A stretch of 64,000 bases of DNA from Micromonospora sp. NBC_01813 (lineage in GTDB: Bacteria > Actinomycetota > Actinomycetes > Mycobacteriales > Micromonosporaceae): positions 5,269,001-5,333,000 of the forward strand of contig NZ_CP109067.1 in the NCBI RefSeq assembly GCF_035917335.1. Direction: 5' to 3'. The translations under genes and the position numbers were made by a program. The notes under the pieces were generated by a model. It was not told the DNA's origin, did not search any database, and saw nothing but the letters and a program-made list of their open reading frames with translations. Positions 9,272 through 25,672 of this stretch are shown one piece after another. Position 1 is the first letter of the stretch. Each line of letters opens with the position of its first letter.

Positions 9272-9570
9272 CCTTGATCCTCTCGACAGAAGAATGCGGC
9301 CGGCATAATTCTCGCCCACGACGAGAATCGTGTTCGTGGCCGACCCGGGGAAGAATATCAAGATCTCTACCGTCAGGGCCGATCAGAAATCCGAGCAGAA
9401 GGCAGTCAATGTCAAGAACCCGCCACGCATTCGTCTCACCATATGGCCGAGTTGCCCATCATTATCCGATGCCCTCGGCTTCGATGACAGGTGGCCCACC
9501 CCGCGCCGGCGCACGATGCGCACAATCGGACCGGGAGCTGCATACCGGCTGGACGGTAGACCCGCCAACC

Positions 9571-9604
9571 GAGGTGCCCTGCGCCGAACGGCGCGGGGCA
9601 CCTC
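9571..9604 (-). terminator. Terminator at 3' end of the CHAT module
   Basis: Arms 9571-9585 and 9590-9604 pair over 15 bases (one G-T wobble) around a GAAC tetraloop, immediately downstream of the EcsC-like stop codon. It ends the minus-strand module. The rest of the 9272-9607 gap holds no gene I can support; its 9272-9480 part is relatively AT-rich and probably carries the promoter of the secreted-protein gene. Confidence 0.8.
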
Positions 9605-9607
9605 CGC

Positions 9608-10294
9608 TCACACCGACCTGACCAGCTGAATCTTGGCGCGGTAGTACTCTTCGGCGCTGGACATGATCGATTCGATCAGCCACACGTTGACACCGCCCGC
9701 CACGGCCGCGCCGAGCAGTGGAATCCAGCCGGCTCCCACCTTGCCGGCGAGCTTCGCGGCGAACTTGGCTCCGACCTTGGCCGCGCCCTTGCCGCCGAAC
9801 CGGCCCGCCACCAGCCATCCTGCGGAAAATAGCATCACCTTGGGCAGCCCTTTGACAAATCCCTTTCCAAATATCTTCGCACCCGCTTTGACGCCCAACT
9901 TGGCGGAGAGCTCCGCTGACACCTTGGCCACGCCCGCCGGGCTCATCAGGAAACGCACCTGCTCGTCTCCGGACCAGTACGCGAGGATCATGCCGAAGTC
10001 GTCCGTCTCGACGATGTTCCCCAGTCCGGCGTTCCTGCCCATGATCGCCCCGACACCGTATGCTGCCGTCCCCATTCGGTTGATGATGAACATGGTGTCG
10101 GCTGCCAGCGTGGCGAGGTGCAGCACCGGAATTGCCGCAGCGGCGGCCCCGCTACCTCCTACCAGGGAGAGCTGCAGCACCTTCCAGCCTCCCAGGCTGA
10201 AAGATCCGCAATTCTTGTAGATTTCCGCCGGATCTGCGGTCATGCCGTTCACGGCATCGATGATGACCTTGTTGAGGCGCTCACTCATCGACAT
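9608..10294 (-). CDS. EcsC-like membrane protein, candidate membrane effector
   Basis: A 228-residue protein. A hydrophobic stretch near 50-80 (GGSGAAAAAIPVLHLATLAA) is followed by a helical middle and a Gly/Ala/Lys repeat region (KGAAKVGAKFAAKLAGKVG). A last hydrophobic segment reads IPLLGAAVAGGVNVWLIESI, then a tail SSAEEYYRAK. The IPxxGAxxxGGxN block followed by an Ala-rich, Tyr-ending helix is the hallmark of EcsC-family proteins. These appear in predicted bacterial conflict systems as membrane-associated effectors. The ATG at 10294 has AGGAG just upstream. It is the last gene of the CHAT module, a common place for an effector. The family call is moderate; the effector role is inferred. 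Confidence 0.65.
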   Translation of the reverse strand: MSMSERLNKVIIDAVNGMTADPAEIYKNCGSFSLGGWKVLQLSLVGGSGAAAAAIPVLHLATLAADTMFIINRMGTAAYGVGAIMGRNAGLGNIVETDDFGMILAYWSGDEQVRFLMSPAGVAKVSAELSAKLGVKAGAKIFGKGFVKGLPKVMLFSAGWLVAGRFGGKGAAKVGAKFAAKLAGKVGAGWIPLLGAAVAGGVNVWLIESIMSSAEEYYRAKIQLVRSV

Positions 10295-10327
10295 GGCTTC
10301 TCCTCTCATTCATAGTGATTCGTACGG

Positions 10328-10516
10328 CTACGGATTGGTTCGGGGGATCTCGATGGACCGCTGCATGCGCCGGATGTCTCGGAGCCGCCGGTCCAGATCG
10401 GCCCGTACGTCGTCGGGATCGGCGCCGCCGGAGATCGCGACGGCCACCGCGTCGCGTAGCTCCCGCACCAGCAGTCCCTCGATGACGTCCGCTGGCTCGG
10501 ACCTGTCGCGCGCCAC
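10328..10516 (-). CDS. Small helical protein of the CHAT module
   Basis: A 62-residue protein with a GTG start one base after the stop of the dead-CHAT gene. It is nearly all helix: LLVRELRDAVAVAISGGADP, then DDVRADLDRRLRDIRRMQ. The pattern A-[DE]-P-x-x-V-x-A-D-L-D-x-R-L-R-x-x-Q is shared with the 87-residue protein encoded at 24725-24988 at the other end of the island, so the two are homologues. A small helical adaptor or inhibitor for the neighbouring caspase-fold proteins is plausible. It may correspond to the small proteins reported beside CHAT/caspase-TPR conflict systems, but I cannot confirm that without a search. Confidence 0.75.
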   Translation of the reverse strand: MARDRSEPADVIEGLLVRELRDAVAVAISGGADPDDVRADLDRRLRDIRRMQRSIEIPRTNP

Positions 10517-10517
10517 G

Positions 10518-13500
10518 TCAACGGCCTCGATACGCGAGCGCGGCCCAGAGCGACGACCGGGTCAGGTCGATCGTCGCGACCGTGTTCAGCTGCGCGCCGG
10601 TCAGAAACGGCGGCAGGCTCCGATCGGGATCGAGCATCCACCGGTGGACGGCGGCGACCGCCGACGCGGGCGGCAGACGGTAGTCGACCAGCATGAGATG
10701 GGTCATGAACAGCGCGAGCGCCGCGAACGGCGCTGGCACCGGCCACTGCCAGCCGATGACTCCCGTGAATCCCGCGTCGACGAAGACGGCGGCATCGGTC
10801 TGGAACCCGTCCGCGCCGGGTTCGGCGAGCACGACCAGTCCGCCGCCGACGACCCTGCCCAGGCTGCGGATCGCCGGTGCGGTGAGCACCTCACCGTCGG
10901 CCAGCTGCAACTCCGTACGGCCGTCTCGGCTCAGGCCACACGCCAGGTGCACCAGCGATGCGCTGGGCAGACGAGCCAGTACGTCGTTCCGCGTGCCAGC
11001 CGCTTCCGCCGGCTCCAGGGCATTTCCGAGGCAGACCGAGCTCGGGTAGAAGAGCCGGCGAAGCATCAGGACCTCGACCATCTCGGAGTCGCGGTCGCCT
11101 CGTGGGTTGACCACGAACAACGGTTCGGCGTCAACAGGTACGGCGGGTCGCGCGGCCAGCACTATCGCCTCGGCCCCGGACGACACGTGGGTGACGACGA
11201 CGTCCTGGGTCAGGAACCGGTCGCTGTCCGTTCGCACCGCCGGGAACGCGATCTGGTCGAGGCCGCCGGTCGAGGCCAGCAGGATGCTGCCGGCCGTCCA
11301 ACGGCCCATGATCGCTGGCCAGCCTGGATCGTCGCTGGCCAGCGGATCGGTCACCGGTACGTTGGCCAGCACGTCGAGGCGGTCGGTCGCGGGGTCGAGA
11401 CACAGCACTGCCGCTGTCCGGCCCGCGTCGTCGGTCGGGTGCAGGTAGAGCAGAGCGGCGGCGCCGATCTGGCGGACCGCTGAGGCGATCTCGGTCCGCG
11501 TCGGCACCTGAACCGGTGCGGCCGCCGGTGGGGCGATACCGATCACAGCGGACAGGACGTCTTCCGGCAGTGAATCAACGTCTGGCCGCTTGGACATCGC
11601 CGCGGCGGCTTCGAGGGCGGTGAACGCTTCCGCACCGCGACCCTCGGCGAGCATCCAGCCGGCGAACCGAGCCGCGCGGTCGGCGTACCGGCCGGCACCG
11701 TGCAGCGCGTGCCAACCCGCGGCGCGGCTCAGTTCGAAATCTCCGGCGTCGCCACGGCAACGGTACGCCGTCGAGAGCCGCCACCAGGTGCGGGTACGCA
11801 GGCCCTGATCGGTGACACCGTCGAGCGTCCGGCTCGCGGTGGCCAGGTGCCGGATGGCGGCGGTGACGTCGTCGCCGCCCGGGTCGGGTGCGCTGATCGC
11901 CGATTCGAGGTGGGCCGCGCCCAGGATCGCCGCTTCCCGGGCGGCCAGCCTGCCGGTGCCGGTGCCGATCGCCTCGACCGCTGCGCGCAGCGCCGCGGCG
12001 TCGCCCCGGACCAGGGCCTCGAGTAACGCGGCGAAGCCAGCTGGCGCCGTGACGGTAGACATCGCCGCGCGTACGGCGGCCGGGTCGCCCGCCCGTACGG
12101 CCACGATGAGCCGGGCATGGCCGAGCGCTGTGGCCAGCGGCCGCTGGCAGGGATGGTCCGCTGGCAGGGCGGCGACCGATGCGGCGAACGGCTCCGGGTC
12201 GAGGGTAGACCCGCTGCGGATCGCGGTGACCGTACGGCACAGTTCACCGATCGCGGTCACGGTCGTGGGCTGGGCGGTGGTCTCGTCCGCGTACCGGGCG
12301 AACGTGCCGGCGATCTCGGTGATCGGGCCGGACAGGGGGCGGGTGTCGTCCAACAGTCCGCCGAGCGCCGTGACGACCGCGGCGGCCGCCGGATGGGTCG
12401 CCGGGATCAGTGTCGCGGCCGTGTCGAGCTGCCGTGCGGCGGCGGACAGCGTTCCGCCGGCCGCGCTGTCGTCGTCGACATCGCCCCAGCCGTCGCCGTC
12501 TCGTCGCTGGCGCACGCACAGTCCGACGGCGAAGGTCAGCCGGTCCAGACCCGACTCGACTCGATCGTCCGCCGTGGCCGGGTCGGCGGGAGCTTCGTCG
12601 ACGGCGTTGGCGGCCGCACCGACGAAGGCGTCCAGGTCACCGGGCGGCACCCGCTCGGGATCGGCGTGCAGCAGTTCGACGGACTGCTCCCAGACGGGTC
12701 GGGTGGGGTCGTCGGCCAGCAGCGCCAGCCGGGCACGGGCGGCCTGTCGGGCCGTACCCGGATGTCGGGCCGTACCCGCAACAGCGGTCGACGGAGGCCG
12801 GCGGGGTGGGACGGTCGGCGCCTGGTCGGCGTCGCCCTGGATCACCACGACCGGATAGTCGATCGGGTCCATGGGGAGGCCGAGACTGAAGGGAATCGCG
12901 AAGGACGATGCCGTGCCGGGACCGGGTGCGGCGCCGGGATAACCCGGTCCGCCGTTGCGCTGCCACTGTTGCAGCACCACCATCAAATCCATCATCTTAC
13001 TGATGTCGAACCGGCCGATGTCGCCGCTCACCAAGGGCTGGATCACCTCCGTCAGGGTGAGCATGGCGCGGGCCCAGGCAGTGACCTCGACGTTCGCGGG
13101 GGCACGATCGATCACCGCTCGGAAGTAGCTGCTCGCATCATCGGCGGCGGTCTTCGCGGACTGGGGCAGTCCGCCAACGAGGCCGCCGCGCAGGGCGCCC
13201 GGGCTGATTGCGTCGGTCACGTAGCTGAGGTGCAATTGGCCGAGCATCAGATTGGCGATCGCGGCATGCATCGGCGGCAGGTCGGATGATTCGAGTGCCT
13301 CGCTGAGCGCGGCGATGCCGGTGTCCCGGTCATCCGGTCCGCTCCCCTGCACTCCGAACCGGCTAGCCAGCAGAAAGCCGAGCTGGAAGGAGACGCGTCC
13401 GCGGACCGGGTCGGTGCCACCGATCAGGCCGTACGCCTCCCGCCACGCCTCGATCGCGGCCGACAGGTCCGCGAGAGCGGCCGGCCGACCAGGCCCGGTA

Positions 13501-13610
13501 CGCCAGTAGCGCCTCGTGTGTTCCTGGCCGAGCCGGGTTAGCGTCGGCAGCCGCGCCGGCCCGCGCAGTCTGGAAAGTTCGTCCCGCAACTTGCTGATGA
13601 TCGCGTCCAT
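10518..13610 (-). CDS. CHAT-fold pseudoprotease with long helical N-terminus
   Basis: A 1030-residue protein. About the first 700 residues are helical and TPR-like in composition, with two Pro/Ala-rich linkers. The C-terminal CHAT domain aligns with the active CHAT protein encoded just upstream: SLVHLACGLSRDG replaces MLHLASHG, and GGLVVLAEPGADG replaces LGLVVLAACHTG. The catalytic His (near 892) and Cys (near 930) are therefore both missing. The fold markers after them are kept (AGFTGVIGWQWPVP, and RWMLDPDRSLPP against VWMLDADREPP). It is probably a substrate, decoy, scaffold or regulator of the live protease. The ATG at 13610 is preceded by GAGAGG at 8-13 bases; the frame further upstream is only a shadow of the next gene. 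Confidence 0.85.
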   Translation of the reverse strand: MDAIISKLRDELSRLRGPARLPTLTRLGQEHTRRYWRTGPGRPAALADLSAAIEAWREAYGLIGGTDPVRGRVSFQLGFLLASRFGVQGSGPDDRDTGIAALSEALESSDLPPMHAAIANLMLGQLHLSYVTDAISPGALRGGLVGGLPQSAKTAADDASSYFRAVIDRAPANVEVTAWARAMLTLTEVIQPLVSGDIGRFDISKMMDLMVVLQQWQRNGGPGYPGAAPGPGTASSFAIPFSLGLPMDPIDYPVVVIQGDADQAPTVPPRRPPSTAVAGTARHPGTARQAARARLALLADDPTRPVWEQSVELLHADPERVPPGDLDAFVGAAANAVDEAPADPATADDRVESGLDRLTFAVGLCVRQRRDGDGWGDVDDDSAAGGTLSAAARQLDTAATLIPATHPAAAAVVTALGGLLDDTRPLSGPITEIAGTFARYADETTAQPTTVTAIGELCRTVTAIRSGSTLDPEPFAASVAALPADHPCQRPLATALGHARLIVAVRAGDPAAVRAAMSTVTAPAGFAALLEALVRGDAAALRAAVEAIGTGTGRLAAREAAILGAAHLESAISAPDPGGDDVTAAIRHLATASRTLDGVTDQGLRTRTWWRLSTAYRCRGDAGDFELSRAAGWHALHGAGRYADRAARFAGWMLAEGRGAEAFTALEAAAAMSKRPDVDSLPEDVLSAVIGIAPPAAAPVQVPTRTEIASAVRQIGAAALLYLHPTDDAGRTAAVLCLDPATDRLDVLANVPVTDPLASDDPGWPAIMGRWTAGSILLASTGGLDQIAFPAVRTDSDRFLTQDVVVTHVSSGAEAIVLAARPAVPVDAEPLFVVNPRGDRDSEMVEVLMLRRLFYPSSVCLGNALEPAEAAGTRNDVLARLPSASLVHLACGLSRDGRTELQLADGEVLTAPAIRSLGRVVGGGLVVLAEPGADGFQTDAAVFVDAGFTGVIGWQWPVPAPFAALALFMTHLMLVDYRLPPASAVAAVHRWMLDPDRSLPPFLTGAQLNTVATIDLTRSSLWAALAYRGR

Positions 13611-13632
13611 GACATTGCCGCCTCTCGATTGC

Positions 13633-16224
13633 TTACTGGCCCCAGTGGACGAAGCCGGCCCAGGCCACCATGTGGGCGGGATCGGTGTCATCGAGCGTGC
13701 GGCGCAACGGGAGCGGCATGTGCCGTGGCGGCTCACGGTCCGCGTCCAGCATCCACACCTGCGCCCGGCGCAACGCGTCCCATGGCGGCCGGCCTTCGAC
13801 GACCAGGAAGTGGTGGAACATGTACATGAGCAGCGACGTGTCCCGGTCCGGGATGCTCCACTGAGTCGACAAAACCGACCGTGCGCCGGACGCCAGAAAC
13901 ATCGTGCCGAGGCTGTAAGCCTCGTCGTAGCCATAGATCGACCGGCCGGTGTGGCAGGCCGCGAGCACGACCAGGCCCAACTGGTGCCGGGCCGACGCGG
14001 ACATGACCCCGAGAAGTTCGTCGGCGGTGAGATCCCCACCGGCCAGCAGCAGGCGCGACGAGGCGGTTTTGGTGGCGGTCTCGACGACGCCGTGCGAGGC
14101 GAGGTGCAGCATCGACCCCATCGGCGTACTGTCGGCCCGCAGCCAGGACCGTACGTCGCCGGCCGTACCGGCACCGGAGCGGCTGACGCTGCCGTCCGGT
14201 CGGCGACCAACGTAGGTCGCGCCGGGATAGAAGACCTGATGGATCGCGTACGCCTCGAGACGCGCCGACAGCAGATCTGCCGCGCGTCCACCGGTGTCGG
14301 GGTCGGCCAGCACCAGCCCGGACGACGTCAGCTGGACCGGCTCCGCCGCGGCCGAGTCGCAGAGCATCCGGGCCGACACGGCCTGGGAGATCGCGACCCG
14401 TTGCACCAGGTGCAGACCGTCGGGGCTGCGGGCCGCCTGCCACGGCACTCTGGCCAGGTCGCCCATCGGGACAAGAATCAGACGCGGGACGCGGTCGGGT
14501 ACGCCAGCAGATGGTGCGACCAGGTACGGCTCGACGAGCGGCTTCATGGCCGCCTTCCACGCCCAGCCACACAGCGCGTCGAGGCTGTCGACGAACCGCG
14601 CCGTCGTCGACGAACCAATCTCCCGATCCGCGCCAGGTCCGGCCTTCCGATCCGCGCCGGGCTCGACGAGAGCCGCGTCCCTGGTCGCCATCGCGGCGAG
14701 GTAGCGCTCGATGTCCGACCCCTGCTCGATCGCGAGATGGGGCAGGGCGACGTAGCGCGGTGGGCCCTCGGCCGGGGCGATCACCGCCCAGCCCGGCGAC
14801 GGAAAGTCGGCGGGCACCAGGTATACCAGCGCATCCGCGTCGAGTCTGCGTAACGCGTGTTGGATCTCGCTGAGGTCGGGCGGGTCGAGCAGGTCGACGC
14901 CCTCGGACAACACCTGCAGAACGTCTTCGCGTAGGTGCGTTGATGGATGTTCGGTCGCACGCCAGCGCCGCGCCAGGTCGGCCTGTCCCGCGTCGATCAG
15001 CCGCGTGTATGGGTCGCGTAGCTCGATCGCGGCGAACAACATCAGCCCCCGCCCCGCGTCGAGGGCACGCAGCGCGTCCACTGGTGCGTGATCGACGAGG
15101 CAGCGGCGGGCGGTCGACATCGCGTCGTCGGCCGCGGTGCGGGCAATGGCACGCGCGGCCGACGCGTCGGGCTGCAACAGCACCTGCCAGACGTATCCGC
15201 GCAGCCCTTCGAGCGCGGCGAGCCGGGCCGGTAGGGCGTCGCCCCGCCGGCTGCGCAATCCGGCGAGCATCTCGTGGACGAGCGACCAGTGCGGGTGACC
15301 CGGTGTTCCGGCCAGAACCCGGGCCTGTTCCAGGATGGTGATGGCCTCGTCGACATCCTCGAGTGCACCGCTGACCTGCGCACGACGGCTGAGGGCCCCG
15401 GCGAGCGAGGCGAGGTGGATGACGTGATCGGGGTGATCGTCCGGAGTCAGGGTGATGGCCTCGCGCAGGTCGTCGATCGCGGCGTCGATCCGCGCCGGGT
15501 CCTGCTCAGCGCCGGCACCCAGCGCCAATCCACCCCCGCTAACGAGGAGGAAGGCCCGTTCCGCAGCTGGGAGGTCGAGACGCTCGGCACGGTTGCGAAT
15601 AGTCGTGAACCGCTGATCGCGCGCGGCCGAATCGGCCTCGTGCGCCCCCCCGATTTGTACCCGCAGCTCCTGCACCATGGGTGCGATTTCCTCGAACGCA
15701 CTCCGCAGCAGGTTGCCCTCAGGCAGTTCACCGGACTTCGCGATGAGGTCGGTGAGCATTGACAGGGCAGCCGTACTGTCACCCGCCTGATGCGCCTGGA
15801 TCGCGATCCTGTGCTGCGCCATCAGTTCGAGCATCGGTGCTGTCTCGGGATGATCGGCGACCATCTCGCCGAGGTTGACCAACGCCGCGTGAAGGGCACC
15901 CGGATCGCGAACAATGCCACCGTTCAGCACCATCGTGGCCTGTGTCGACGCGGCCAACACCTGAATCTGAGGATCGTCGGCGTGGTCCGCGATCAGTTTG
16001 TCCAGTTCGGCTGCTGCCGCGCGCTGATCGACCAGTTCGCGCTCGGCGGCCGCGCGCAGCAACGCCAGGATGCGGACGGCGGCCATGGTCCGGCGCCACT
16101 GCGGTGGGGCGGAGGGTCGCTCGCCGCCGCCGGATCCGACGATCTCAGTCTCGTCCGGATGCGCCATCTCGTCACGTCTCCTCGGTGAGGTGTCGCTCTT
16201 TTCTGACGGACGGTTGGTGGTCAC
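13633..16224 (-). CDS. CHAT domain protease with TPR-like N-terminus
   Basis: An 863-residue protein. Residues 50-420 are helical repeats of TPR/alpha-solenoid type, for example DAAIDDLREAITLTPDDHPD and EDVDEAITILEQARVLAGTP. The CHAT domain occupies about 470-863. Its catalytic His lies in MLHLASHGV (near 711) and its Cys in VVLAACHTG (near 757), with the usual downstream GARSVLSTQWSIPD block. CHAT proteases are caspase-clan (clan CD) enzymes that cleave partner proteins when a bound sensor is triggered. The GTG start overlaps the sigma-like gene stop as GTGA. An ATG at 16167 with GAGGAG 10 bases upstream is an alternative that removes 19 residues. Substrate candidates are the dead CHAT and the other neighbours. 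Confidence 0.92.
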   Translation of the reverse strand: MTTNRPSEKSDTSPRRRDEMAHPDETEIVGSGGGERPSAPPQWRRTMAAVRILALLRAAAERELVDQRAAAAELDKLIADHADDPQIQVLAASTQATMVLNGGIVRDPGALHAALVNLGEMVADHPETAPMLELMAQHRIAIQAHQAGDSTAALSMLTDLIAKSGELPEGNLLRSAFEEIAPMVQELRVQIGGAHEADSAARDQRFTTIRNRAERLDLPAAERAFLLVSGGGLALGAGAEQDPARIDAAIDDLREAITLTPDDHPDHVIHLASLAGALSRRAQVSGALEDVDEAITILEQARVLAGTPGHPHWSLVHEMLAGLRSRRGDALPARLAALEGLRGYVWQVLLQPDASAARAIARTAADDAMSTARRCLVDHAPVDALRALDAGRGLMLFAAIELRDPYTRLIDAGQADLARRWRATEHPSTHLREDVLQVLSEGVDLLDPPDLSEIQHALRRLDADALVYLVPADFPSPGWAVIAPAEGPPRYVALPHLAIEQGSDIERYLAAMATRDAALVEPGADRKAGPGADREIGSSTTARFVDSLDALCGWAWKAAMKPLVEPYLVAPSAGVPDRVPRLILVPMGDLARVPWQAARSPDGLHLVQRVAISQAVSARMLCDSAAAEPVQLTSSGLVLADPDTGGRAADLLSARLEAYAIHQVFYPGATYVGRRPDGSVSRSGAGTAGDVRSWLRADSTPMGSMLHLASHGVVETATKTASSRLLLAGGDLTADELLGVMSASARHQLGLVVLAACHTGRSIYGYDEAYSLGTMFLASGARSVLSTQWSIPDRDTSLLMYMFHHFLVVEGRPPWDALRRAQVWMLDADREPPRHMPLPLRRTLDDTDPAHMVAWAGFVHWGQ

Positions 16225-17243
16225 CGACGACGACGTTCGTCGAGCAGGTCGATGACCGTCGCGACGACGCGGTCCAGCCGTTTCGGGTCGCCGATCAGGT
16301 CGGCGGCCAGGTTGAGCCCGCCCGGGTCCTCGCCCGGCATCTGCTCCAGGTCACCGGCGGCGGGCAGGGTGCCGAACACGACCGCCAGCACCTCGGGCAC
16401 GACGTGGCGGAGCTCCTCGCCACGCTCGGCCCGCCGGGTGATGACGTCGATCGCCCGCGCGGCCAACTCCTGCAGCAGCGCCTCGTCCCGGTCGTACGGC
16501 GTGACGAGGGCGAGTGGCTCCGGATCGGCGTGTCCACCATCGACGCCACGGGACGGGAACCAGACCGGAGCCTGCTTTCTCCCCAGCGGCCGTTCCACGT
16601 ACTTGTCGTGCCAGGCGGGACGGTGCCGCATCGCGGCCAGCACCATCTCGATCTCGGCGGCGACCACCGATTCACCGGCGGTGTGATCGCCGGTGACGAT
16701 GCCGCGCTGCTCGGTCCACGCGGCCAGCGGCCACAGCGAAGCGCCGGCCGTCGCGTCGGTGCCAACCCAGTCGAGGATCGCCTTGGCCAGAGCGACGAGC
16801 CAGACGTCCCGGTCGAGCGCCTGGGCGAGCCAGGTCGCGACGCGGGGCCGCTGCGGCGCACCGCGTTCGCCACGGCGACGCCGGTGACCATCCACGGTGG
16901 CCTGACGCAGCCGTACGGTGAGCCAACCCTCGAGGTTGTCGACCGGCGCGGTGGCGTATGCGAACAGGTACCGCACCGCGGCTTCGACGTCGTCGTGGAA
17001 CCGGTCCAGGCAGTCGGACGCCAGCCGCTGTACGCCGGCCGCGCACTGGTGGTGGCCCCGATTGCGTTCGACCTGCCGGGTGACCCGGAGGAACACCAGC
17101 GGCCAGACGATCTCCGTCGCTCCCGCCCACAGGCGACGTCGTTCCTCCCCTGACGCCTTTTCGAAGTAGTTCACCAACTCGCCTTCGCCAGTCAGTCGAC
17201 GTACGTGATCCGCTGCGCGAGACGGGTTTTCGTTATCGGCCAC
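16221..17243 (-). CDS. Sigma-region-2-like protein, copy B
   Basis: A 340-residue protein with no known name. Residues 80-125 look like sigma-factor region 2: DCLDRFHDDVEAAVRYLF, then NLEGWLTVRL and ATVDGHRRRRG. This resembles the D-x-E-x-x-V, N-x-x-x-W and D-x-x-R-R-R pattern of region 2.1-2.3. No region 4 helix-turn-helix follows. Instead come QRPRVATWLAQALDRDVWLV, a helical middle, KYVERPLGRKQAP near 220 and a C-terminal helical part. Copy A at 23346-24368 is a paralogue of the same length. The GTG start at 17243 is chosen for GGAGGAG 6 bases upstream. It could be an anti-sigma-like adaptor, a decoy or a divergent RNA polymerase binder; this is inferred. Confidence 0.8.
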   Translation of the reverse strand: MADNENPSRAADHVRRLTGEGELVNYFEKASGEERRRLWAGATEIVWPLVFLRVTRQVERNRGHHQCAAGVQRLASDCLDRFHDDVEAAVRYLFAYATAPVDNLEGWLTVRLRQATVDGHRRRRGERGAPQRPRVATWLAQALDRDVWLVALAKAILDWVGTDATAGASLWPLAAWTEQRGIVTGDHTAGESVVAAEIEMVLAAMRHRPAWHDKYVERPLGRKQAPVWFPSRGVDGGHADPEPLALVTPYDRDEALLQELAARAIDVITRRAERGEELRHVVPEVLAVVFGTLPAAGDLEQMPGEDPGGLNLAADLIGDPKRLDRVVATVIDLLDERRRR

Positions 17244-17468
17244 CGCAAACTCCTCCGGGTCGACGCTGCTCGTCGACGCACCTTCCCGAGGGCACGCCGC
17301 GATCGCGCGGCATTGACACCGCGCCAATCGGGCAATCACCGGGAGCTGATCGGGTGCGCTTGTCGACGACTGCATCGATCGTCATTCGTGGGAGGAGGCC
17401 ACGCCAAGCGTCACGGGAGAAGATACCGAGAACTACGTAAGCGCCCCGTCGGCCGGGAGAATACGTAC

Positions 17469-17497
17469 GGGCCGGGTTCCGTATCGGAACCCGGCCC
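17469..17497 (-). terminator. Terminator separating the two modules
   Basis: A perfect 13-base stem (arms 17469-17481 and 17485-17497) with a 3-base loop lies just after the stop of the small protein gene. It splits the minus-strand island into a caspase module upstream and a CHAT module downstream. The 17244-17468 stretch between this hairpin and the sigma-like copy B start has no gene and should hold the second module's promoter. Confidence 0.8.
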
Positions 17498-17512
17498 GCT
17501 GCCTCACCAGCG

Positions 17513-17737
17513 TCAGGACATCTCGCTGGGGCGCGGCCCCGGGTCGAAGTCGAGGACGACGGCGGAGGTGGCCGCACCGTTGAGGAAGACGGTGACGCGG
17601 CGCCCGGCGGCGTCGTAGAGCTTCAGCTCCACCGACGTACGGTTGGTCATCGCCTCTCGGACCAGCCGGACCACGTCCGGCGCGTCGGCGTCGGCGATGC
17701 TCCACGTCGACTGGCCGATGCTGAGTTTCTTGGTCAT
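17513..17737 (-). CDS. Small hypothetical protein of the caspase module
   Basis: A 74-residue protein beginning MTKKLSIGQSTWSIADADA. It alternates beta-prone and helical segments: a VVRLVREAMTNR helix, then SVELKLYDAAGRRVTVFLNG and SAVVLDFDPG. This suggests a compact alpha/beta fold. GGGAG precedes the ATG at 17737 by about 6 bases; an in-frame GTG at 17755 would add MEREFE. I do not recognise the family. It is last in the caspase transcription unit, directly before the terminator, so it may be a partner, substrate or inhibitor of the caspase. Confidence 0.75.
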   Translation of the reverse strand: MTKKLSIGQSTWSIADADAPDVVRLVREAMTNRTSVELKLYDAAGRRVTVFLNGAATSAVVLDFDPGPRPSEMS

Positions 17738-17811
17738 TTCAAACTCCCTTTCCACAGATGTACCCGCGAACGAGTAGTTCCGACATGCGTGCCCGACCGT
17801 CTCGGTGGTGC

Positions 17812-20334
17812 TCAGGCCACTTCGTCGATCGAGAACGTGAACGAGAAATCCTGCGGCTGCCGCACGTGGCGGCCGATCCCGTACTGTTCCTGAGCCAGCA
17901 GGGAGGTGCGATACAGGCCGATGCTCGAACCCACGGCCTTGCTCAACAGTTCGTAGGCCGTATTGACCAGCACCGCGCCGGCACCGACGGCCGCCACCGC
18001 GGCGGCCGCCTGTGGCGCGGCCACCGCGAGGCCGACCAGCTGGGTGCCGGCCGCCTGCACCAGCGGGTTGGTCAGTTTCTCCTGCAGCAGTTCGCCAAGG
18101 GCGAGACTGCCGGTCGTGTCACGCGACACCCAGACCGCGATGTCGAGATAGTCCACCACCGGACCGTGGTAGATCAGCACGTTGTCGATCGGGAGCCGCT
18201 CACCGTCACCGATCTTGCTGCACCGGATGGTCTCCGCGCGGTAGGCCGGCTGGTCGGCGGCTCCGCCGGTGAGCACGACCGCGTCCACCCGGATGTCGGC
18301 GTTGCCGAAGGCGCGGTTGCGGTGCACAGTCAGCTCCGCGATCCGCACGGCGACCCTGGTCGGTGTCACGCTGCGGGTGGACAGCAACCGCACCTGCCGC
18401 TGCGGCCGGTCGTCGACCAGGAACTCCGCCCGCTCGGCGGTCGGCGGCGCGGTCGGACTCACCATGAAGTCGATCGGCGCCACGGCGAACCGAACGTCTG
18501 CGGCCGGCGCGGCACCGACCTCGCGGCTCGCCCCGGTCGCGATCTGGCTCAACAGGCGTCCCAGACTCGACCCGTCACCGAAGCGACGAGGCACGTCGCG
18601 GACACCACGCTGCTGCAGCACCCCGACGTCGACCGGCTTGTCGCTGATCAGCGCGAGGACGGTCTCCGGGCGCACGACGGTGGCGTCGATTCCCTCCGGC
18701 CACGTCACCTCGACACCGGTCAGCCGCTGCTGGTCGTGGTTCCAGCCGTAGGTGTACGACGCGCCAGGAGTGAGCCGGACACCGCCGTGATCGGCGGCGG
18801 TCAGCACCGCGATACGCGACGAGATGCCGATGTCGACAAGTGAGGCGTACACCGTCTGCTGGCCGTCGTTGCGCAGCCGGACGTAGATGCGCTCCGCGTC
18901 GTCGGCGAACAGCAGCTCGCCCGACCGGGCAAGTGGCTCCGGCTGGCCGTCGCGTACCCGCCCCCACTCGAGCACCACGTCGTGGAACAGCGGGCGGTCC
19001 GGATCGCCCTGCAGCTGGCGCAACGCGGTCGCCTGGGCGATCCGCTGCAGGTTGGCGGTGATCGAGGTGATCCCGAGGGGGGTCGCCGGGTACGGCTCGT
19101 GCAGCGGTCCGCTCTCGTCCCGTACCACCAGTTTGTGGTCGGCGTCGACGACGACCTCGACGGTGGCCGCCCCGTCCGTGTCCGGGTCTGCTGGCCGCAG
19201 CAGCGGCCGCAACGACATGGCGTCGATCAGCCCTGCGGTCACCGGCGAGTCCGCTGGCAGCCGGACCGGCAGCGCCGGCGCTGCCGCGTGGGTGCGGTAC
19301 GCCCGGGCATCGGGCGGCAGCGACCGTCCCGCGATCGCCGGACGCACCTGCGCCGACGCCATCGTGGGCAGGAGCCGGTCGACGGTCGCGGTGCCGATCG
19401 CCGGGCCGTCCTGCGGGCCGGCGACGTCACTCGGCATGATCGCGAACTCGTCGCCGATCCCGACGCCGAGTAGCGGCGCACCGAGCAGTTCGATGCGCTC
19501 CGGTGCGGTCACCACAATCGGCAGACTGTCCAGCAGGTCCAGATCGGTGGTCTCGAAGGGCTGCCGGCTGGACGGCCCTTGCGCCTCCGGCCGCTGGGCG
19601 GGCTCGAAGTTCTGCACCTCGCGGCGCACCGCGTCGAGCAGCGTCGACCAGTTCACCCGCAGCCCCACCGTGTCCCGGATCGCCCGGGTCAACGCGTCGG
19701 TGAACAGTCCCATCTGCACGCTGTCGCGGTTGGCGGTCTCGTAGGCGGACTCCCACGGCGCGCAGGCGACCACGCGGACCGCGTGCGGGTTGGCGACCAG
19801 CGGGCGCCGGTGCACCGGCAGTCCGGCGGCCACCAGCCGGGCATCGTGCTCGCGGACGGTCTCGTACGTCGGCCGCCAGCGCTGCGGCACCGGCCGGATC
19901 AACCCCTTGACCTGAGCGCCGGTACGGGACATGTGCGCGGCGTGGCAGCAGTCGTGGATGACCGTGACGTTGCAGGTGACGTCAGTCAGCCGCTTGAGCA
20001 GCACGGACTGTTCGACGCCGGTGACACCGCGAAAGTCGTCCTCGACGGAGGTGTCGTAGTCGTCCGGCACTATGAACTGCAGGTCCGGTCCGTCTGGCGT
20101 CAGCAGTCGGCCGCCGTGTCCGCTGAAGTAGACGACGACGGCGTCGTCGGGCTTGGCGTCCGTGATCAACTTCTCGTACGCGTCGAGGATTCGCGCCCGG
20201 GTGGCGTCCGGCGTGACCAGCCGTTCGATCAGGAAGCCACGCTGCGCCAGGGCCAACCCCATCGCCGTGACGTCGTTGAGCACACCGCTCAGGCCGTTGG
20301 TCTGGGCACCGATCAAAAGAGCCTTCCGCGTCAT
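17812..20334 (-). CDS. Caspase-like (peptidase C14/metacaspase) protein
   Basis: An 840-residue protein. The N-terminal 1-240 region is a caspase fold starting MTRKALLIGAQTNGLSG. The catalytic His73 lies in VVVYFSGHGGRL and the catalytic Cys130 in VTVIHDCCHAAH. Residues 250-700 are mainly beta-rich with no family I can name. Near the C-terminus an Ala/Val-rich stretch (LVGLAVAAPQAAAAVAAVGA, from about 764) could insert in a membrane or pack as a helical hairpin. The protein ends with SIGLYRTSLLAQEQYGIGRH. Bacterial caspase homologues of this kind cleave after basic or acidic residues to trigger cell death. The ATG at 20334 is chosen because the fold begins there; longer upstream sequence is a shadow. 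It lies 32 bases after the LuxR-ATPase gene. Confidence 0.9.
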   Translation of the reverse strand: MTRKALLIGAQTNGLSGVLNDVTAMGLALAQRGFLIERLVTPDATRARILDAYEKLITDAKPDDAVVVYFSGHGGRLLTPDGPDLQFIVPDDYDTSVEDDFRGVTGVEQSVLLKRLTDVTCNVTVIHDCCHAAHMSRTGAQVKGLIRPVPQRWRPTYETVREHDARLVAAGLPVHRRPLVANPHAVRVVACAPWESAYETANRDSVQMGLFTDALTRAIRDTVGLRVNWSTLLDAVRREVQNFEPAQRPEAQGPSSRQPFETTDLDLLDSLPIVVTAPERIELLGAPLLGVGIGDEFAIMPSDVAGPQDGPAIGTATVDRLLPTMASAQVRPAIAGRSLPPDARAYRTHAAAPALPVRLPADSPVTAGLIDAMSLRPLLRPADPDTDGAATVEVVVDADHKLVVRDESGPLHEPYPATPLGITSITANLQRIAQATALRQLQGDPDRPLFHDVVLEWGRVRDGQPEPLARSGELLFADDAERIYVRLRNDGQQTVYASLVDIGISSRIAVLTAADHGGVRLTPGASYTYGWNHDQQRLTGVEVTWPEGIDATVVRPETVLALISDKPVDVGVLQQRGVRDVPRRFGDGSSLGRLLSQIATGASREVGAAPAADVRFAVAPIDFMVSPTAPPTAERAEFLVDDRPQRQVRLLSTRSVTPTRVAVRIAELTVHRNRAFGNADIRVDAVVLTGGAADQPAYRAETIRCSKIGDGERLPIDNVLIYHGPVVDYLDIAVWVSRDTTGSLALGELLQEKLTNPLVQAAGTQLVGLAVAAPQAAAAVAAVGAGAVLVNTAYELLSKAVGSSIGLYRTSLLAQEQYGIGRHVRQPQDFSFTFSIDEVA

Positions 20335-20366
20335 GCTCGTCTCTGACGGACGAACGCGCGATGGGC

Positions 20367-23303
20367 TCAGTCGAAGAGACGCTCCCGGTTGGCAAGGGCG
20401 ACCGCCTCGACCGAGGAATGGACGCCGAGTTTGCGGTACACACTGCCGAGCTGCGTCTGCACGGTCCGGATCACCACCGTGCGGGCGGCGGCGATCCGGG
20501 CAGGGCCGTACCCCTCGCACAGCAGGCGCAGGGTGTCCAACTCGGCCGGGGTCAGGTCGTACGGGTACTTGGTCGCCGCCGGTCGATCGGCCAGGTCCAG
20601 GTCCAGTTTGCGCGCCAACTCGACCACCACGTCGCACAGTGGCCCGGCCCCCAGCGACTTCGCCACCAGGTACGCCTCCCGGGCCCGCTGGCGGGCCGCG
20701 TCTCGATCACCGGCGGCGTGCGCGGCGACGGCTTGCCGCCACCGGGCGTACGCCGCTGGGTACGGCCGGTCCAGCTTCACCCAGCCCGCGGCGACCTCGC
20801 CCCACACCGTGGCGCTGTCGGCGGCCCGCAGGCGCCGCCGTTCCGCCTTGCACAGTCGAACGAGCTGCACCACCTCGCCGCCCGCCGGCCCAGCCACCGA
20901 CGACTGCGACTGCGACTGCTCAGCCTGTCGAGCCAGCAGGGCGAGCCGGTCGCCGACGGTGATCGCGACCGCCCGGTACGCATCGGACGCCGCCGCCCGA
21001 TCGGCCGCGCACCGCAGGCCCAGCACACACAGCCGCAGCACTTCCAGTCCGTTCTCCCCGTCCTGTACCGCCGCCAGCCCGCGCTCGACCTCCTCGGCCG
21101 CGCCGGCGAAATCGTCCTGCCAGAGCGCCAACTCCGCCCGTACGGCGTGCAGCGGCCCGAGAAAACGGGGATCCTTGCCGTGTTCGACATTGTCGATCGA
21201 GACAAGAAGCTCCCGGGCCTGTGCGTGTTCCCCCCGCGCCACTTTGATCTCGGCGAGGGTGAGGCGCGGGTAGAGGCTCTCCTCCGGCCGCCGATCCGAC
21301 GACACCTCGGTGACGATCTTCTCGGCTTCCTCCCACTCGCCCAACAGCAGCAGCGCCGCGCTGGCGTTGTTGGCCAACACGCCACCTTGCCGGGTGTTCG
21401 CCAGGTGGAGCTTGCGTGCCTCCGCCAGCCCACTCATCGCGGCGCTCGCCGATTCCCGGGTCCGGCCGGCGTGCTCCAGGACAAGCCCGAGGTTGCCGTA
21501 CGCCCGCAGCAGGTCCTCGATGTGGTCGACCGACCGGGCGATCTCCAGCGCGGCGCGCAGCCTGACCTCACCCTCCGGGTCGCCCAGCATGCCGAGGGCG
21601 AGGCCGGAGATGTTCAGCGCCCGGCCCTCCTCGGCGCGCGCACCGACGTCCCTCGCCATGGTCAGCGCCGCAGCGGCCATGTGGTGGCCGTCCGCGTACC
21701 GGCCGGCCTGCAGGTGGGCCAGGGCGAACCCAGCCAGGACCCGCGCTTTGACCGCCGACGCCGGCCCAGCCTCGAGCAACGCGGACGCCTGCCGCAACGC
21801 CGCGACCGAATCGGCCCGCCGCCCGACCTCCCACAGATAGGTGCCACGCCGTTCGTACAACTCGCCGAGCCGGCCCGGATCGGTGCCGTCACCGACCTCC
21901 GCGATGGCCTGCCGGATGTGTGCCAGGGCCCGGTCGACGTGACCGGTCCAGCGGGCCGCCTCGGCCGCCCACAGGAGCACCTGGTCCCGGGACATGCCCG
22001 CCTGCAGCTGCGGATCCGCGACCCGCTGCCACAGCTTCAACGCCCGGGTGAACTGAACCTCCGCCGACGCGAACGCCAGGGTGCGAGCCGCGGTCTCCCC
22101 GGCTTGGACGGCGAAGGAGAGCGCCTGCGGCCACATCCCCGCCTGATACCAGTGACTGGCCTGTTCGGCTACGGCGGAACCCTCGGCGAGGCAGAGTCGC
22201 GAGTCCTCGGCCAGTGCCTGCGCCATGGCCATGTGCAGGTCGACCCGAGTGTCGCGGACCGTCATCTGATACACCACCTCGCGCAGCAACGCGTGCCGGA
22301 ACCGGTACACGTCCTCCTCGTGGCCGGTGACGAGCATCTGCCGGTCGAAGCACTCCTGCAGCGCGTCTCGTAGGGCCTCGCCCGGCAGGCCGCTGACCGT
22401 ACGCAACAGTCGGCGGCTCATCGCCCGACCGGCGACCGCGGCGACCCGGAGGACCCGCAGCGCGTCCTTTCCCAGACCGCCCAACCGGGCGAGGACCACC
22501 GAACTGATGTCGGCCGGCAGCCGGACGTCTTCCGGATTGTCCAGGACGCCGGTCGCCATCAACTGTTCCGCGTAGAACGGAATCCCGTCGGACCATTCCA
22601 GACAACGCTCGATCAGCTCCGGATCGACAGCTTCGTTGGCTGCCGAATTGATGAACCGACGCAGTTCCGGGAGAGTGAAGGCCGGCAGCTCGAGACGTTC
22701 GGTCCGACGCAGGAACGTCGGGCTCGCCAACAGTTGCCACAGCGGGTCGTCCCGGACCAGACCGCCGGAGCGGAAGCTGGCGACCAGCAGCAGTCGCCGG
22801 TTCTCGGCTCGGGTCTGGCCCAGGTGCCGGACCAGGTCGAGCGTGGACGGGTCGGCCCAGTGCAGGTCCTCCAGGATCAGCACCACGGGCGCGTCGGCGG
22901 CGATGCCGTCGAGCATCCGGCGGACGGCAAGAAAGACCTGCTGTGGGGCGGTCATCGAGTCCGCACCGAGCTCGAAGAAGGCGATCAACCGCTCGTACGC
23001 GTCGCCACCGAGAACGGCCGCCCGGCTCTCGCCGTACTCGCGGCCGAACGAGTCCAGCACCTCGAGCAGCGGCCCGTACGGCATGGGATCGCCGAAGTGC
23101 TCCTCGCCCGCGCCGGACAACACGTGAGCGCCGGCGGCCCGGGCCGACTCGGCGAACCGGCTCAACAGCCGGCTCTTGCCGATGCCGGCCTCACCGCCGA
23201 TCAGCACCGTCCGCGCGTGGCCCTGCCGGGCGTCGGTCAGGCGCCGCGCCAGCAGCTCCAACTGATCCGTACGGCCGATGAACTCCGCCTCTGCGGGCAC
23301 CAC
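20367..23303 (-). CDS. Large ATPase-LuxR regulator (MalT/STAND-like)
   Basis: A 978-residue protein. The N-terminal AAA/STAND ATPase begins EAEFIGRTDQLELLARRL, with Walker A LIGGEAGIGKSRLL near 36 and Walker B VVLILEDLHWADPS near 146. A long helical TPR-type sensor region spans about 350-890. The C-terminal LuxR helix-turn-helix (about 913-975) runs from LTPAELDTLRLLCEGYGPAR to VQTQLGSVYRKLGVHSSVEA. Such proteins bind a ligand, oligomerise with ATP and activate transcription. It lies between sigma-like copy A and the caspase gene in the same direction (gaps of 42 and 32 bases), so it may be the dedicated switch for the island. It could also be a neighbour kept for general regulation. Confidence 0.9.
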   Translation of the reverse strand: MVPAEAEFIGRTDQLELLARRLTDARQGHARTVLIGGEAGIGKSRLLSRFAESARAAGAHVLSGAGEEHFGDPMPYGPLLEVLDSFGREYGESRAAVLGGDAYERLIAFFELGADSMTAPQQVFLAVRRMLDGIAADAPVVLILEDLHWADPSTLDLVRHLGQTRAENRRLLLVASFRSGGLVRDDPLWQLLASPTFLRRTERLELPAFTLPELRRFINSAANEAVDPELIERCLEWSDGIPFYAEQLMATGVLDNPEDVRLPADISSVVLARLGGLGKDALRVLRVAAVAGRAMSRRLLRTVSGLPGEALRDALQECFDRQMLVTGHEEDVYRFRHALLREVVYQMTVRDTRVDLHMAMAQALAEDSRLCLAEGSAVAEQASHWYQAGMWPQALSFAVQAGETAARTLAFASAEVQFTRALKLWQRVADPQLQAGMSRDQVLLWAAEAARWTGHVDRALAHIRQAIAEVGDGTDPGRLGELYERRGTYLWEVGRRADSVAALRQASALLEAGPASAVKARVLAGFALAHLQAGRYADGHHMAAAALTMARDVGARAEEGRALNISGLALGMLGDPEGEVRLRAALEIARSVDHIEDLLRAYGNLGLVLEHAGRTRESASAAMSGLAEARKLHLANTRQGGVLANNASAALLLLGEWEEAEKIVTEVSSDRRPEESLYPRLTLAEIKVARGEHAQARELLVSIDNVEHGKDPRFLGPLHAVRAELALWQDDFAGAAEEVERGLAAVQDGENGLEVLRLCVLGLRCAADRAAASDAYRAVAITVGDRLALLARQAEQSQSQSSVAGPAGGEVVQLVRLCKAERRRLRAADSATVWGEVAAGWVKLDRPYPAAYARWRQAVAAHAAGDRDAARQRAREAYLVAKSLGAGPLCDVVVELARKLDLDLADRPAATKYPYDLTPAELDTLRLLCEGYGPARIAAARTVVIRTVQTQLGSVYRKLGVHSSVEAVALANRERLFD

Positions 23304-23345
23304 ACCACCACCTCATCACCTACCGCGGATCGGAGTCCAGTTCGA

Positions 23346-24368
23346 TCATGTCGCCGAGGTGCCGCTGTGGACACCGAGGATGTCGAGGATCGTCGCGACG
23401 AGCCGGTCGAGCTCGGTGGCGTCGCGCAGCACCCGGTCGAGACGATCGTCGTACGCCCGGCCGCCCGCCCCGTGCGGGTCCGTCGTGGCCCCGACATCGG
23501 CGCCGAACACCACGCTCAGCACCTCGACGACGACGGCCCGGGCCGGTTCCCCCCGGGCCAACCTGGCGTTGATGAGCGCGACCGCGTCATGAGCCAACGC
23601 GGTGAGGACCTGCTCCTGCGCGGAGAACACGTCGGTCGGGGTGGGCGGATGGGCGCCGTCGCGATCATCGAGCCGCGCTGCCGCGACCACCGGTGCCTGC
23701 TTGCGGCCGAGTGGCGTCTCCACGTACCTCTCGTACCACTGTGGCCGGCGGTTCATCGCGTCGAGTACGACCCGGATGTCGGCTCGCACGTCGGCCTCAC
23801 CGTAGGCCGACCAGTCGCCGTGGCGCTCGCAGCGCAGTGCGGCCCAGGCCTGGGTCGGCCACAGGTCGTAGCCCGCGGTGCTGGGAACGCCCACCCAGAC
23901 CAGGATCTGGGTAGCCAGATCGATCAGCCAGGGGTCGCCACCCAGTTGCTTCGCGAGCCAGCCCGGTACGCGGGGACGTTGCAGCGCGCCGTCGGCACCT
24001 CGCCGTCGGCGGTGGCCGTCGACGGTGGCCGGGACGAGGCGACTGACGATCCATCCCTCAAGGTTCTCGATCCGCGATCCGGCCCGGCGAATCACGTCGT
24101 CCACGACAGCTTCGACGTCGTTCTGGAACCGGTCGAGGCAGTCGGCGGCCAGCCGACTGATCGACGTCGCGCAGGTGAGATGGCCACGCCGCATTTCGAT
24201 CTTGCGGGTGAGTCCTCGATACACCACGGGCCAGACGATCGAATACGTCGCTCCGGTCAACCGCACTCGGTATGGCCCCGACGCTGTGCCGATCGTGGCC
24301 GCCAGCAGTCCACTGCGTGCGAGGTCACGCACCTCGTCGACGCCATCGGTCTGGGACGATCCGAGCAC
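23346..24368 (-). CDS. Sigma-region-2-like protein, copy A
   Basis: A 340-residue paralogue of the protein encoded at 16221-17243. Shared blocks, in order, are AADCLDRFQNDVEAVVDD, ENLEGWIVSRL, ATVDGHRRRRG, QRPRVPGWLAKQL, DLATQILVWVG, LWPTQAW and YVETPLGRKQAPV. The first three mirror sigma region 2 (core-binding and -10 recognition helices), but no region 4 follows. The GTG start has AGGGGGG at a good distance. It opens the caspase module, while its paralogue opens the CHAT module, so each protease has its own copy. The function is unknown; an adaptor that senses transcription (for example a phage-altered RNA polymerase) is one idea and remains inference. Confidence 0.8.
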   Translation of the reverse strand: MLGSSQTDGVDEVRDLARSGLLAATIGTASGPYRVRLTGATYSIVWPVVYRGLTRKIEMRRGHLTCATSISRLAADCLDRFQNDVEAVVDDVIRRAGSRIENLEGWIVSRLVPATVDGHRRRRGADGALQRPRVPGWLAKQLGGDPWLIDLATQILVWVGVPSTAGYDLWPTQAWAALRCERHGDWSAYGEADVRADIRVVLDAMNRRPQWYERYVETPLGRKQAPVVAAARLDDRDGAHPPTPTDVFSAQEQVLTALAHDAVALINARLARGEPARAVVVEVLSVVFGADVGATTDPHGAGGRAYDDRLDRVLRDATELDRLVATILDILGVHSGTSAT

Positions 24369-24724
24369 CAGGCCCCCCTTTTGGATTGAGCCGCCGAAGC
24401 GGATCTAGCTTGGCCTATCGGGAGTTGCGCCGTAAATGACAGGACGAATCGTCTCGGCCTCCGGTCAGACGGGACGACGAGCGTCTACGTTGGCTCGACA
24501 CGGCGACTCGGTCTACACCGGAGGCGGGTCGGTTGCCCGGACCGGATGAACGATGTAGCCGACAGCAGCGGGTTCGGCAGCAGCGTGTCACCCCTTCGGC
24601 CGAACCCGGTCCGAGCGCGCGGCGTCGTCGTCGAGGATCCAGTGCACGGGGTACCGACCCGTCGACGGTCCGACCAGGCATGCTGGCAGGTAGAACGATC
24701 ACGACTACCCGACGGACGGTCCGC
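24369..24724. promoter_or_regulatory. Divergent intergenic region of the caspase/CHAT island
   Basis: 356 bases separate the start of sigma-like copy A (minus) from the small helical protein (plus). Short open frames here have no protein-like character. The part near 24400-24440 is the most AT-rich and probably holds the minus-strand promoter. No convincing inverted repeat or -35/-10 pair could be fixed by eye. Confidence 0.4.
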
Positions 24725-24988
24725 ATGCCCGACGCCGCAGTGCCACCCACCGAGCCGCCCCACGCGCCGGTCGAGGAGCTGACCGGATACCTGCTGGCGG
24801 AGTTGCGCGCGGCGGGGTCGACAGCCGTACGAGCCGGAGCCGAACCCGCCGCGGTGACCGCCGACCTCGACGAGCGGCTGCGCCGGGTCCAGGCGATGTT
24901 GGCGGCGGTCGAGGACGCCACGCCAGCCGTCGCCCCGGACGGACCACCGCTCTGGCATGATCACCCCGATGCAGTCCCCCCGCGTTGA
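24725..24988 (+). CDS. Small helical protein, homologue of the CHAT-module small protein
   Basis: An 87-residue protein with a Pro-rich start (MPDAAVPPTEPPHAPVEEL), a helical core YLLAELRAAGSTAVRAGAEP, then AAVTADLDERLRRVQAMLAA and a Pro/His-rich tail. The core matches the 62-residue protein encoded at 10328-10516 (GADPDDVRADLDRRLRDIRR). It lies divergent from sigma-like copy A and so probably belongs to the caspase module. Its 3' end overlaps the next gene by 32 bases. The start is a choice between the ATG at 24725 and an in-frame ATG at 24680; neither has a strong ribosome site. Confidence 0.65.
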   Translation: MPDAAVPPTEPPHAPVEELTGYLLAELRAAGSTAVRAGAEPAAVTADLDERLRRVQAMLAAVEDATPAVAPDGPPLWHDHPDAVPPR

Positions 24989-25496: not shown

Positions 25497-25672
25497 CCAG
25501 TTTCTGACCGGCACGGGACATCACCCCGCCAGACAACTGTCTGCATTGTTTTTCAGATAGGTGATTGTCTAAGTAATTTTGCCGTGATAGCGCTTGCATC
25601 AACATCGACAAGCAACAAAACTGTCAATGATCTAGCAAGCCTGCGATTCCCAGTCCCATTCAGGAGGGAACA

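Follow-up and report, generated by a model that had tools for sequence, protein, structure and literature searches.

The window analysed here is a stretch of 64,000 nucleotides from Micromonospora sp. NBC_01813 (contig NZ_CP109067.1, positions 5,269,001 to 5,333,000), and it carries an island of ten genes at 9608..24988 in which a caspase-family protease, a TPR-CHAT protease and a pseudo-protease stand beside two proteins of one sigma-like family. We tentatively favor the reading that filamentous actinomycetes have here a conflict or programmed-death island that spreads horizontally, in which proteolysis may be coupled to a sigma-like switch, similar to Csx29/Csx30/CASP-sigma and without CRISPR. 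This reading draws on the co-occurrence and fixed order of the genes, on the empty site in five congeners, on catalytic residues that the active proteases retain and the pseudo-protease family has lost, on fold searches led by sigma-70 proteins, Sigma70_r2 matches and an hhalign score, on a hairpin and TACGTA boxes, and on the Csx29/Csx30/CASP-sigma precedent with its EcsC-like target described in the available text of PMC10028731. The genes, order, strands and coordinates that the original prediction had given for the block were all correct on recheck, with nine genes on the minus strand and the small helical gene sh1 alone divergent (open reading frame check). The order of transcription is sigma-like A, LuxR-type ATPase, caspase, 74-aa protein, hairpin, sigma-like B, TPR-CHAT, dead CHAT, sh2 and the EcsC-like gene (Table 1).

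To place the island in the genus, six other genomes were searched for flank homology to the window (the host genome is 7.6 Mb). Five congeners (G034, G060, G079, G093 and G114) are homologous to the window as far as 9291-9294 and lack the island at this site. In G060 and G114 the homology picks up again at 24952-24953, and in G034, G079 and G093 at 25065-25530; in these last three the next gene (DinB-like by eye) is matched partly or not at all. In the relatives, 148 to 339 bp lie between the flanking homology blocks. The sixth genome, G105, carries the island, and its right flank matches the window whereas its left flank does not. At this one site the ∼15.5-kb block is either there or missing as a whole, and the coordinates predicted for the island are almost exactly those of an insertion. 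Related LuxR/sigma-like sets are found elsewhere in G079, G093 and G114 (with a caspase and a 74-aa gene in G093 and G114), so our claim is one of an empty site and not of an absence of all relatives. The two ends of the island have no 11-mer in common, and Pfam detected no integrase among the ten products. These results are consistent with an accessory block that may have been exchanged by recombination, and the absence of the block from the site in five of six congeners supports the conflict-type accessory island that had been proposed.

Recurrence of the genes was followed in 150 Micromonosporaceae genomes, with at most 14 candidates scored per genome for relatives of sigma-like B and at most six in the caspase and CHAT searches. 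Sigma-like B has relatives in 32 of these genomes (29 strong) and at 37 named loci, among them loci of Micromonospora, Actinoplanes, Asanoa, Amycolatopsis and Catenulispora. In a phylum sample with five candidates scored per genome, at least two of 396 genomes have the protein (the host genome and G003). Fisher tests left out the genomes with weak sigma-like matches (G007, G026 and G083) and those with short caspase matches (G044 and G068); related genomes are not independent in these statistics. Sigma-like genes were present in 14 of the 15 genomes with the long caspase (p 6e-11), in 16 of the 22 with CHAT (p 2e-9) and in all 24 with the small helical family at E <1e-8 (p 3e-23), the last count being favored by a helical profile that was built from sigma-like regions. 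CHAT was present in 12 of the 15 long-caspase genomes (p 1.4e-9), and in 13 of the 15 the distance between the long caspase and a sigma-like gene is 0.4-3.4 kb.

Genes were called in 71 regions, the first 40 kb of the window among them, each of at most ∼21 kb, so that genes farther away are unseen. The short loci L001-L032 and the duplicates L080, L091, L092 and L100 were dropped before gene calling; L106, which overlaps L035, was left out of the counts, which refer to 70 regions, and L067 has a sigma-like match but no called sigma-like gene. The LuxR-type ATPase precedes the long caspase in 17 of 17 cases and the 74-aa gene comes next in 16 of 17. A dead-CHAT-family gene follows 13 of the 20 CHAT genes, two of the 20 being at region edges. 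The order LuxR-type ATPase, caspase, 74-aa, sigma-like, CHAT and dead CHAT is seen at five loci: the window, L034 (M. tulbaghiae), L035 (Asanoa siamensis), L070 and L071. These genes recur together. A lack of co-occurrence between the sigma-like gene and the protease and small genes had been named as the finding that would speak against the original prediction; the association holds in other genomes.

Pfam matches and residue conservation agree with the earlier calls of a caspase, an active CHAT protease and a dead CHAT protein. The caspase falls in Peptidase_C14 by Pfam, alignment, profile and fold, with a GHG His and a DxC Cys that are kept in 31 of 31 family rows (row L106 repeats L035). 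Its profile search returned metacaspases over about the first 250-270 residues, and its structural model (mean pLDDT 75.9) matches metacaspases and MALT1. The long form of the caspase occurs in the counted regions only together with the LuxR-type ATPase. Its extension from about residue 630 is modeled as strands followed by a helical stretch at 746-801 at low model confidence; the most hydrophobic 19-residue segment of the protein is 766-784, and a membrane role for the helical stretch would be a guess from the model. The active CHAT protein (P0007) has the domain, His and Cys of a CHAT protease; both residues are found in 18 of 20 family rows, the other two being gapped there, and the protein scored 24.1 bits against the Csx29 model (cut-off 300). 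The dead CHAT protein (P0008) has a CHAT domain without the catalytic residues. In its family of 17 rows the His is missing in all 11 that have letters there, and L090 keeps the Cys. The ATPase is a LuxR-type large ATPase regulator by Pfam, with AAA_16 (6.7e-29) and a C-terminal GerE helix-turn-helix (HTH) domain (4.5e-07).

Two related loci have incomplete sets. The CHAT gene of G105 (L070:7870-9540) was matched only by query residues 15-441 and 797-844; the middle with His and Cys is gone, which makes it a decayed copy, and the dead CHAT gene there is full length. In G079 (L077:10974-12295) the LuxR-type ATPase is split in two and gene calling gave neither a caspase nor a 74-aa gene, whereas the sigma-like and vWA genes remain.

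The identity of the sigma-like proteins was approached by fold, profile and family comparison. Sigma-like A and sh2 had no Pfam match, and the matches of sigma-like B (0.48) and sh1 (0.83) were no better than chance; region 2 of the Sigma-70 family was recognized in neither sigma-like A nor B, and the 42 Sigma70_r2 matches of the genome do not include the island's sigma-like protein. An AlphaFold model from 68 sequences had a mean pLDDT of 88.2 and a pTM of 0.63. The top nine of 72 matches in a PDB fold search are chains of RNA polymerase complexes or holoenzymes (E 0.48 to 2.4), and these chains are probably the sigma subunit judging from their letters and lengths. In a fold search of viral models, sigma-70 factors took ranks 1 and 2 (best E 0.031, probability 0.90) and more were found at ranks 4, 6 and 9, with two unnamed proteins ranked between the sigma-70 matches. 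An hhalign comparison with 30 sigma factors of the same genome gave a score of 29.3 over residues 31-159 (maximum of 60 column shuffles, 19.0), and by our reading the alignment appears to be in register of sigma region 2. Comparison with two locus clusters taken for extracytoplasmic function (ECF) sigma factors gave P values of 0.28 and 0.025, the second out of register. Weak and consistent support from sequences and models leads us to call the family "sigma-like" and not a sigma factor; for the label as first proposed, sigma-70 proteins head two fold searches, but no single match is significant.

The family has a conserved stretch, HRRRRGERGALQRPR, and an LWP motif in which W171 and P172 are invariant; we do not know of either as a feature of sigma factors. 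In residues 64-78 of sigma-like B, Cys67 and Cys78 are invariant and His64 is nearly so, which suggests a metal or redox site. One relative (L088:8845-10389) has a C-terminal extension that resembles a TetR-type HTH by eye and gave no Pfam match. The very long sigma-like frames of Amycolatopsis (L051, L052, L054 and L063) look like gene calls extended too far across the divergent neighbor, and we did not count them as fusions.

In a tree of 81 sequences, sigma-like B and seven other genes downstream of a 74-aa gene form a clade of eight rows (97/100) with hosts that include Micromonospora, Asanoa, Nucisporomicrobium and Actinoplanes. Sigma-like A falls in a different clade of five rows (100/100), whose other members are the A genes from L070 and L034 and two genes, of L087 and L090, that have no long caspase beside them. 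Each clade spans several genera. Position labels were given to 10 genes upstream of a LuxR-type ATPase and to 15 genes near a 74-aa gene; for either label the tree requires three or more changes, so position does not fix the clade everywhere. The original prediction had described two parallel sets, duplicated and diverged. This is not supported: sigma-like A and B fall in separate clades, and the sets are not parallel copies, as only the sigma-like and small helical families are common to both, caspase and CHAT are different families, and the LuxR-type ATPase and the 74-aa protein belong to set 1 only. Family content and tree lead us to reject duplication of the whole block. Judging from the tree, the island joins two older sigma-like lineages and is not a recent duplication.

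The placing of sh1 and sh2 in one family was confirmed by profile comparison. An iterated profile that started from sh1 and sh2 found this family in 49 of the 70 regions at E <1e-8. In 39 regions a match lies within 700 bp of a sigma-like gene. These nearby matches make up 45 rows, a few proteins contributing two, and in 41 rows the strand is opposite to that of the sigma-like gene. Strong copies, two at the least, also occur far from the listed sigma-like genes (G148, ∼223.4 kb on contig 21; G009, ∼2.607 Mb on contig 2). A helical gene follows dead CHAT on the same strand in the window, L034, L071, L079 and L085. The distances of sigma-like and helical proteins are correlated in a mirror-tree comparison (r 0.66, 40 pairs, 0 of 2000 permutations as high), but r is 0.24 when only distant pairs are taken, and the correlation may therefore come from shared descent. 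The EcsC-like protein has a PADLOC match and two hydrophobic segments in favor of its earlier label, whereas its Pfam match is under the cut-off; among 71 regions it has a relative only in L070, where that relative and a helical relative share one open frame; a fusion or the loss of a stop codon could account for this. DUF3107 was matched by 7 of 15 members of the 74-aa family (best E 0.0029), and the PRPSEMS-like tail of this family is a possible docking or cleavage site.

We examined the gap between the two sets for control elements. A terminator with a 13-base stem had been predicted at 17469; a hairpin is present, but its perfect stem is 14 bp (loop ATA) and no T-run follows. The window is GC-rich, and its first 40 kb contain perfect stems of at least 13 bp at three more places, which makes the stem by itself unremarkable. 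Of the 17 regions having the 74-aa gene, 10 have a stem of at least 9 bp in the gap that follows it; the letters vary between loci and the pairing is kept. Position-wise alignment of eight gaps before genes of the sigma-like B type gave TACGTA at the box in six, CGGTAT after it in five and both in four, and the box therefore rests on a small set. The pattern has one exact site in the genome, TACGTAGTTCTCGGTAT, and one with two mismatches, and no regulon of the box was seen. Motif discovery upstream of sigma-like genes gave mostly apparent ribosome-binding sites and sequence common to Amycolatopsis loci. Promoter-like sites numbered 2 against 0.6 expected and terminator-like sites 3 against 3.5 expected, and an Rfam search gave no match. 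The pattern would fit a terminator together with a regulated promoter that serves set 2 separately, with the LuxR-type HTH as the natural candidate binder of the TACGTA boxes.

Every mechanistic step beyond gene content is one that we infer. The LuxR-type ATPase would sense a trigger via its repeats, oligomerize on ATP, turn on the adjoining caspase and also activate the second operon by way of the conserved boxes that precede sigma-like B. Both proteases, the caspase and the TPR-CHAT enzyme in its pair with the pseudo-protease, would cut a partner that holds the sigma-like protein; the small helical protein or dead CHAT is a candidate for this partner. Once free, the sigma-like protein could steer RNA polymerase toward genes for stress and effector functions, the EcsC-like gene among them, and the outcome may be growth arrest or death.

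Several results weigh against such a conflict island with a sigma-like switch. No sigma-like fold match is significant alone, none having E <0.001 (best 0.48 in PDB, 0.031 among viral models), and a sequence-profile search of PDB gave nothing sigma-like, mostly ribosomal S8 at chance level (best E 0.065). The hhalign P value was only 0.0056 with a probability of 6.5%, and the caspase profile reached 27.4 against the sigma-like profile over 27 columns. Sigma70_r2 is the commonest Pfam match in the family, with weak matches in 4 of 68 members (best E 0.023). Searches of phage and plasmid records turned up no relative of sigma-like B, and PHROGs at E up to 0.01 gave no match for 9 of the 10 island products. 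The base composition of the island is ordinary, with third-position GC of 0.80-0.93 in its ten products and 0.87-0.90 in three flanking genes. More than half of the sigma-like regions (37/70) are without LuxR, caspase, CHAT or dead-CHAT genes of these families, and 8 of 17 long-caspase regions lack active CHAT (three of them with a dead-CHAT gene), so the parts also work apart.

The scarce Sigma70_r2 matches, HRRRRGERGALQRPR and the LWP motif would also suit sigma-like proteins that act as scaffolds or RNA polymerase decoys with a sigma-derived fold, freed by proteolysis to jam transcription or gather proteases, with the helical proteins as effector adaptors; the single sh2-relative/EcsC-like frame of L070 fits an adaptor if it is a true fusion. 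The sigma-70 proteins at the head of two fold searches and the TetR-type-HTH-like end of the L088 relative (by eye, without Pfam match) argue against decoys or scaffolds, which we consider somewhat unlikely. It is also unlikely that the genes form a developmental or stress regulon of mycelial actinomycetes for regulated hyphal death and not against invaders. The named hosts of sigma-like loci are filamentous actinomycetes, and CHAT and dead CHAT each contain a single TTA codon, a developmental mark in Streptomyces that the other island products lack; however, presence or absence among congeners at one site and the decayed copies (CHAT in G105, LuxR and caspase in G079) fit an accessory conflict system better. 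We give a similarly small chance to a broader scheme, in which the sigma-like protein and its helical partner would be the constant core of a modular actinomycete immune or death switch with added caspase, CHAT/pseudo-CHAT, LuxR-ATPase, Crp-like or vWA parts, and in which caspase and CHAT would here form a two-step cascade releasing sigma-like proteins, a CRISPR-free counterpart of CASP-sigma. Two unrelated operons side by side by chance in a hot spot, as the long-caspase regions without active CHAT and seven regions with CHAT and no LuxR-type ATPase might suggest, are very improbable given the LuxR-to-dead-CHAT order at five loci and CHAT in 12 of 15 long-caspase genomes.

The conflict island was compared with known systems. 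In type III-E, according to the available text of PMC10028731, the TPR-CHAT protease Csx29 cleaves Csx30, an inhibitor of CASP-sigma; release of CASP-sigma is proposed, and one gene predicted to be upregulated by it has EcsC homology. A TPR-CHAT protease, a sigma-like protein and an EcsC-like gene are thus found in both, whereas the island adds a caspase, an ATPase and a pseudo-CHAT, and its sigma-like family is far from ECF sigma factors. Cas7-11, Csx30 and Csx31 were not named among the matches of the ten products (the presence of Csx30 and Csx31 models in the libraries being unconfirmed), and window 5000-30000 contains no direct-repeat family; on these searches the island was not assigned to the type III-E CASP systems. 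In EACC1-caspase systems of multicellular actinobacteria the caspase is the constant part (available text of PMC7159879). The island caspase matches NF047832 of such systems at 39.8 bits, far under the cut-off of 140; Pfam found no EACC1 among the ten products, which places the island outside them, and "sigma factor" does not appear in the main text of that article. The predicted EACC2-caspase conflict system includes an ECF sigma factor and a DUF1822 TPR protein (available text of PMC8195603). There too a caspase gene adjoins a sigma factor gene, but the island has another sigma-like family, a helical partner, CHAT and pseudo-CHAT. The vWA-MoxR and GAP1 systems belong to multicellular bacteria (available text of PMC7159879); Pfam found no vWA, MoxR or GAP1 among the island products, whereas some sigma-like genes elsewhere share regions with a vWA gene (L077 by Pfam test, L075 and L076 by family membership) or a GAP1 gene (L069 by test, L062 by family membership). 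No account of this island was apparent in the literature searched, a coverage from which subscription papers mostly fall out.

Table 1. Features of the island and its control region (window coordinates).
Feature	Position	Strand	Evidence
Inserted stretch, absent here in five congeners	9295..24952	.	Genome comparison; left edge by eye may be ~9420
EcsC-like membrane protein, 228 aa	9608..10294	-	Pfam EcsC E 0.024, under cut-off; PADLOC PDC-S29 6.3e-4
sh2, small helical protein, 62 aa	10328..10516	-	One family with sh1
Dead CHAT protein, 1030 aa	10518..13610	-	Pfam CHAT 5.9e-12; catalytic His and Cys gone
Active TPR-CHAT protease, 844 aa	13633..16167	-	CHAT 1.2e-47, His and Cys present; TPR below cut-off
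Sigma-like B, 340 aa	16221..17243	-	Fold, profile and tree analyses
Conserved box TACGTAGTTCTCGGTAT upstream of sigma-like B	17423..17439	-	Alignment of eight related gaps
Further TACGTA	17462-17467	-	Gap upstream of sigma-like B
Perfect 14-bp hairpin 3' of 74-aa gene	17468..17498	-	Probable terminator/attenuator, without T-run
74-aa protein, weakly DUF3107-like, conserved PRPSEMS-like tail	17513..17737	-	Pfam on family members
Caspase-family protease, 840 aa, long C-terminal part	17812..20334	-	Peptidase_C14 7.9e-17; profile and fold matches
AAA_16 ATPase, weak TPR matches, LuxR-type HTH, 978 aa	20367..23303	-	Pfam
Sigma-like A, 340 aa	23346..24368	-	48% identity to sigma-like B over B residues 10-335
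sh1, small helical protein, 87 aa, divergent from sigma-like A	24725..24988	+	One family with sh2

A probable secreted trypsin-like protease (by eye; window 25673-26539) adjoins the island. In G105 it also adjoins the island, and the DinB-like gene between is missing there. Other combinations were observed at sigma-like loci elsewhere. L037, L041, L048 and L060 have a sigma-like gene with a Crp-like regulator (Pfam, one representative), a short caspase and a ∼418-aa protein that is nucleotide cyclase-like by eye and gave no Pfam match; these loci are possibly a second type of system. A ∼322-aa family (L059:8799-9764) is present in 22 regions, divergent from the sigma-like gene in those inspected, and has an HTH by eye with no Pfam match above the cut-off.

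To our knowledge, the substrates and outputs of bacterial caspase-like and CHAT proteases are mostly not known. A conserved island that would couple a caspase and CHAT to a sigma-like family names candidate substrates. If the reading as a conflict island is true, protease-gated transcription, reported for one CRISPR type, would be wider in multicellular bacteria, used against invasion or stress.

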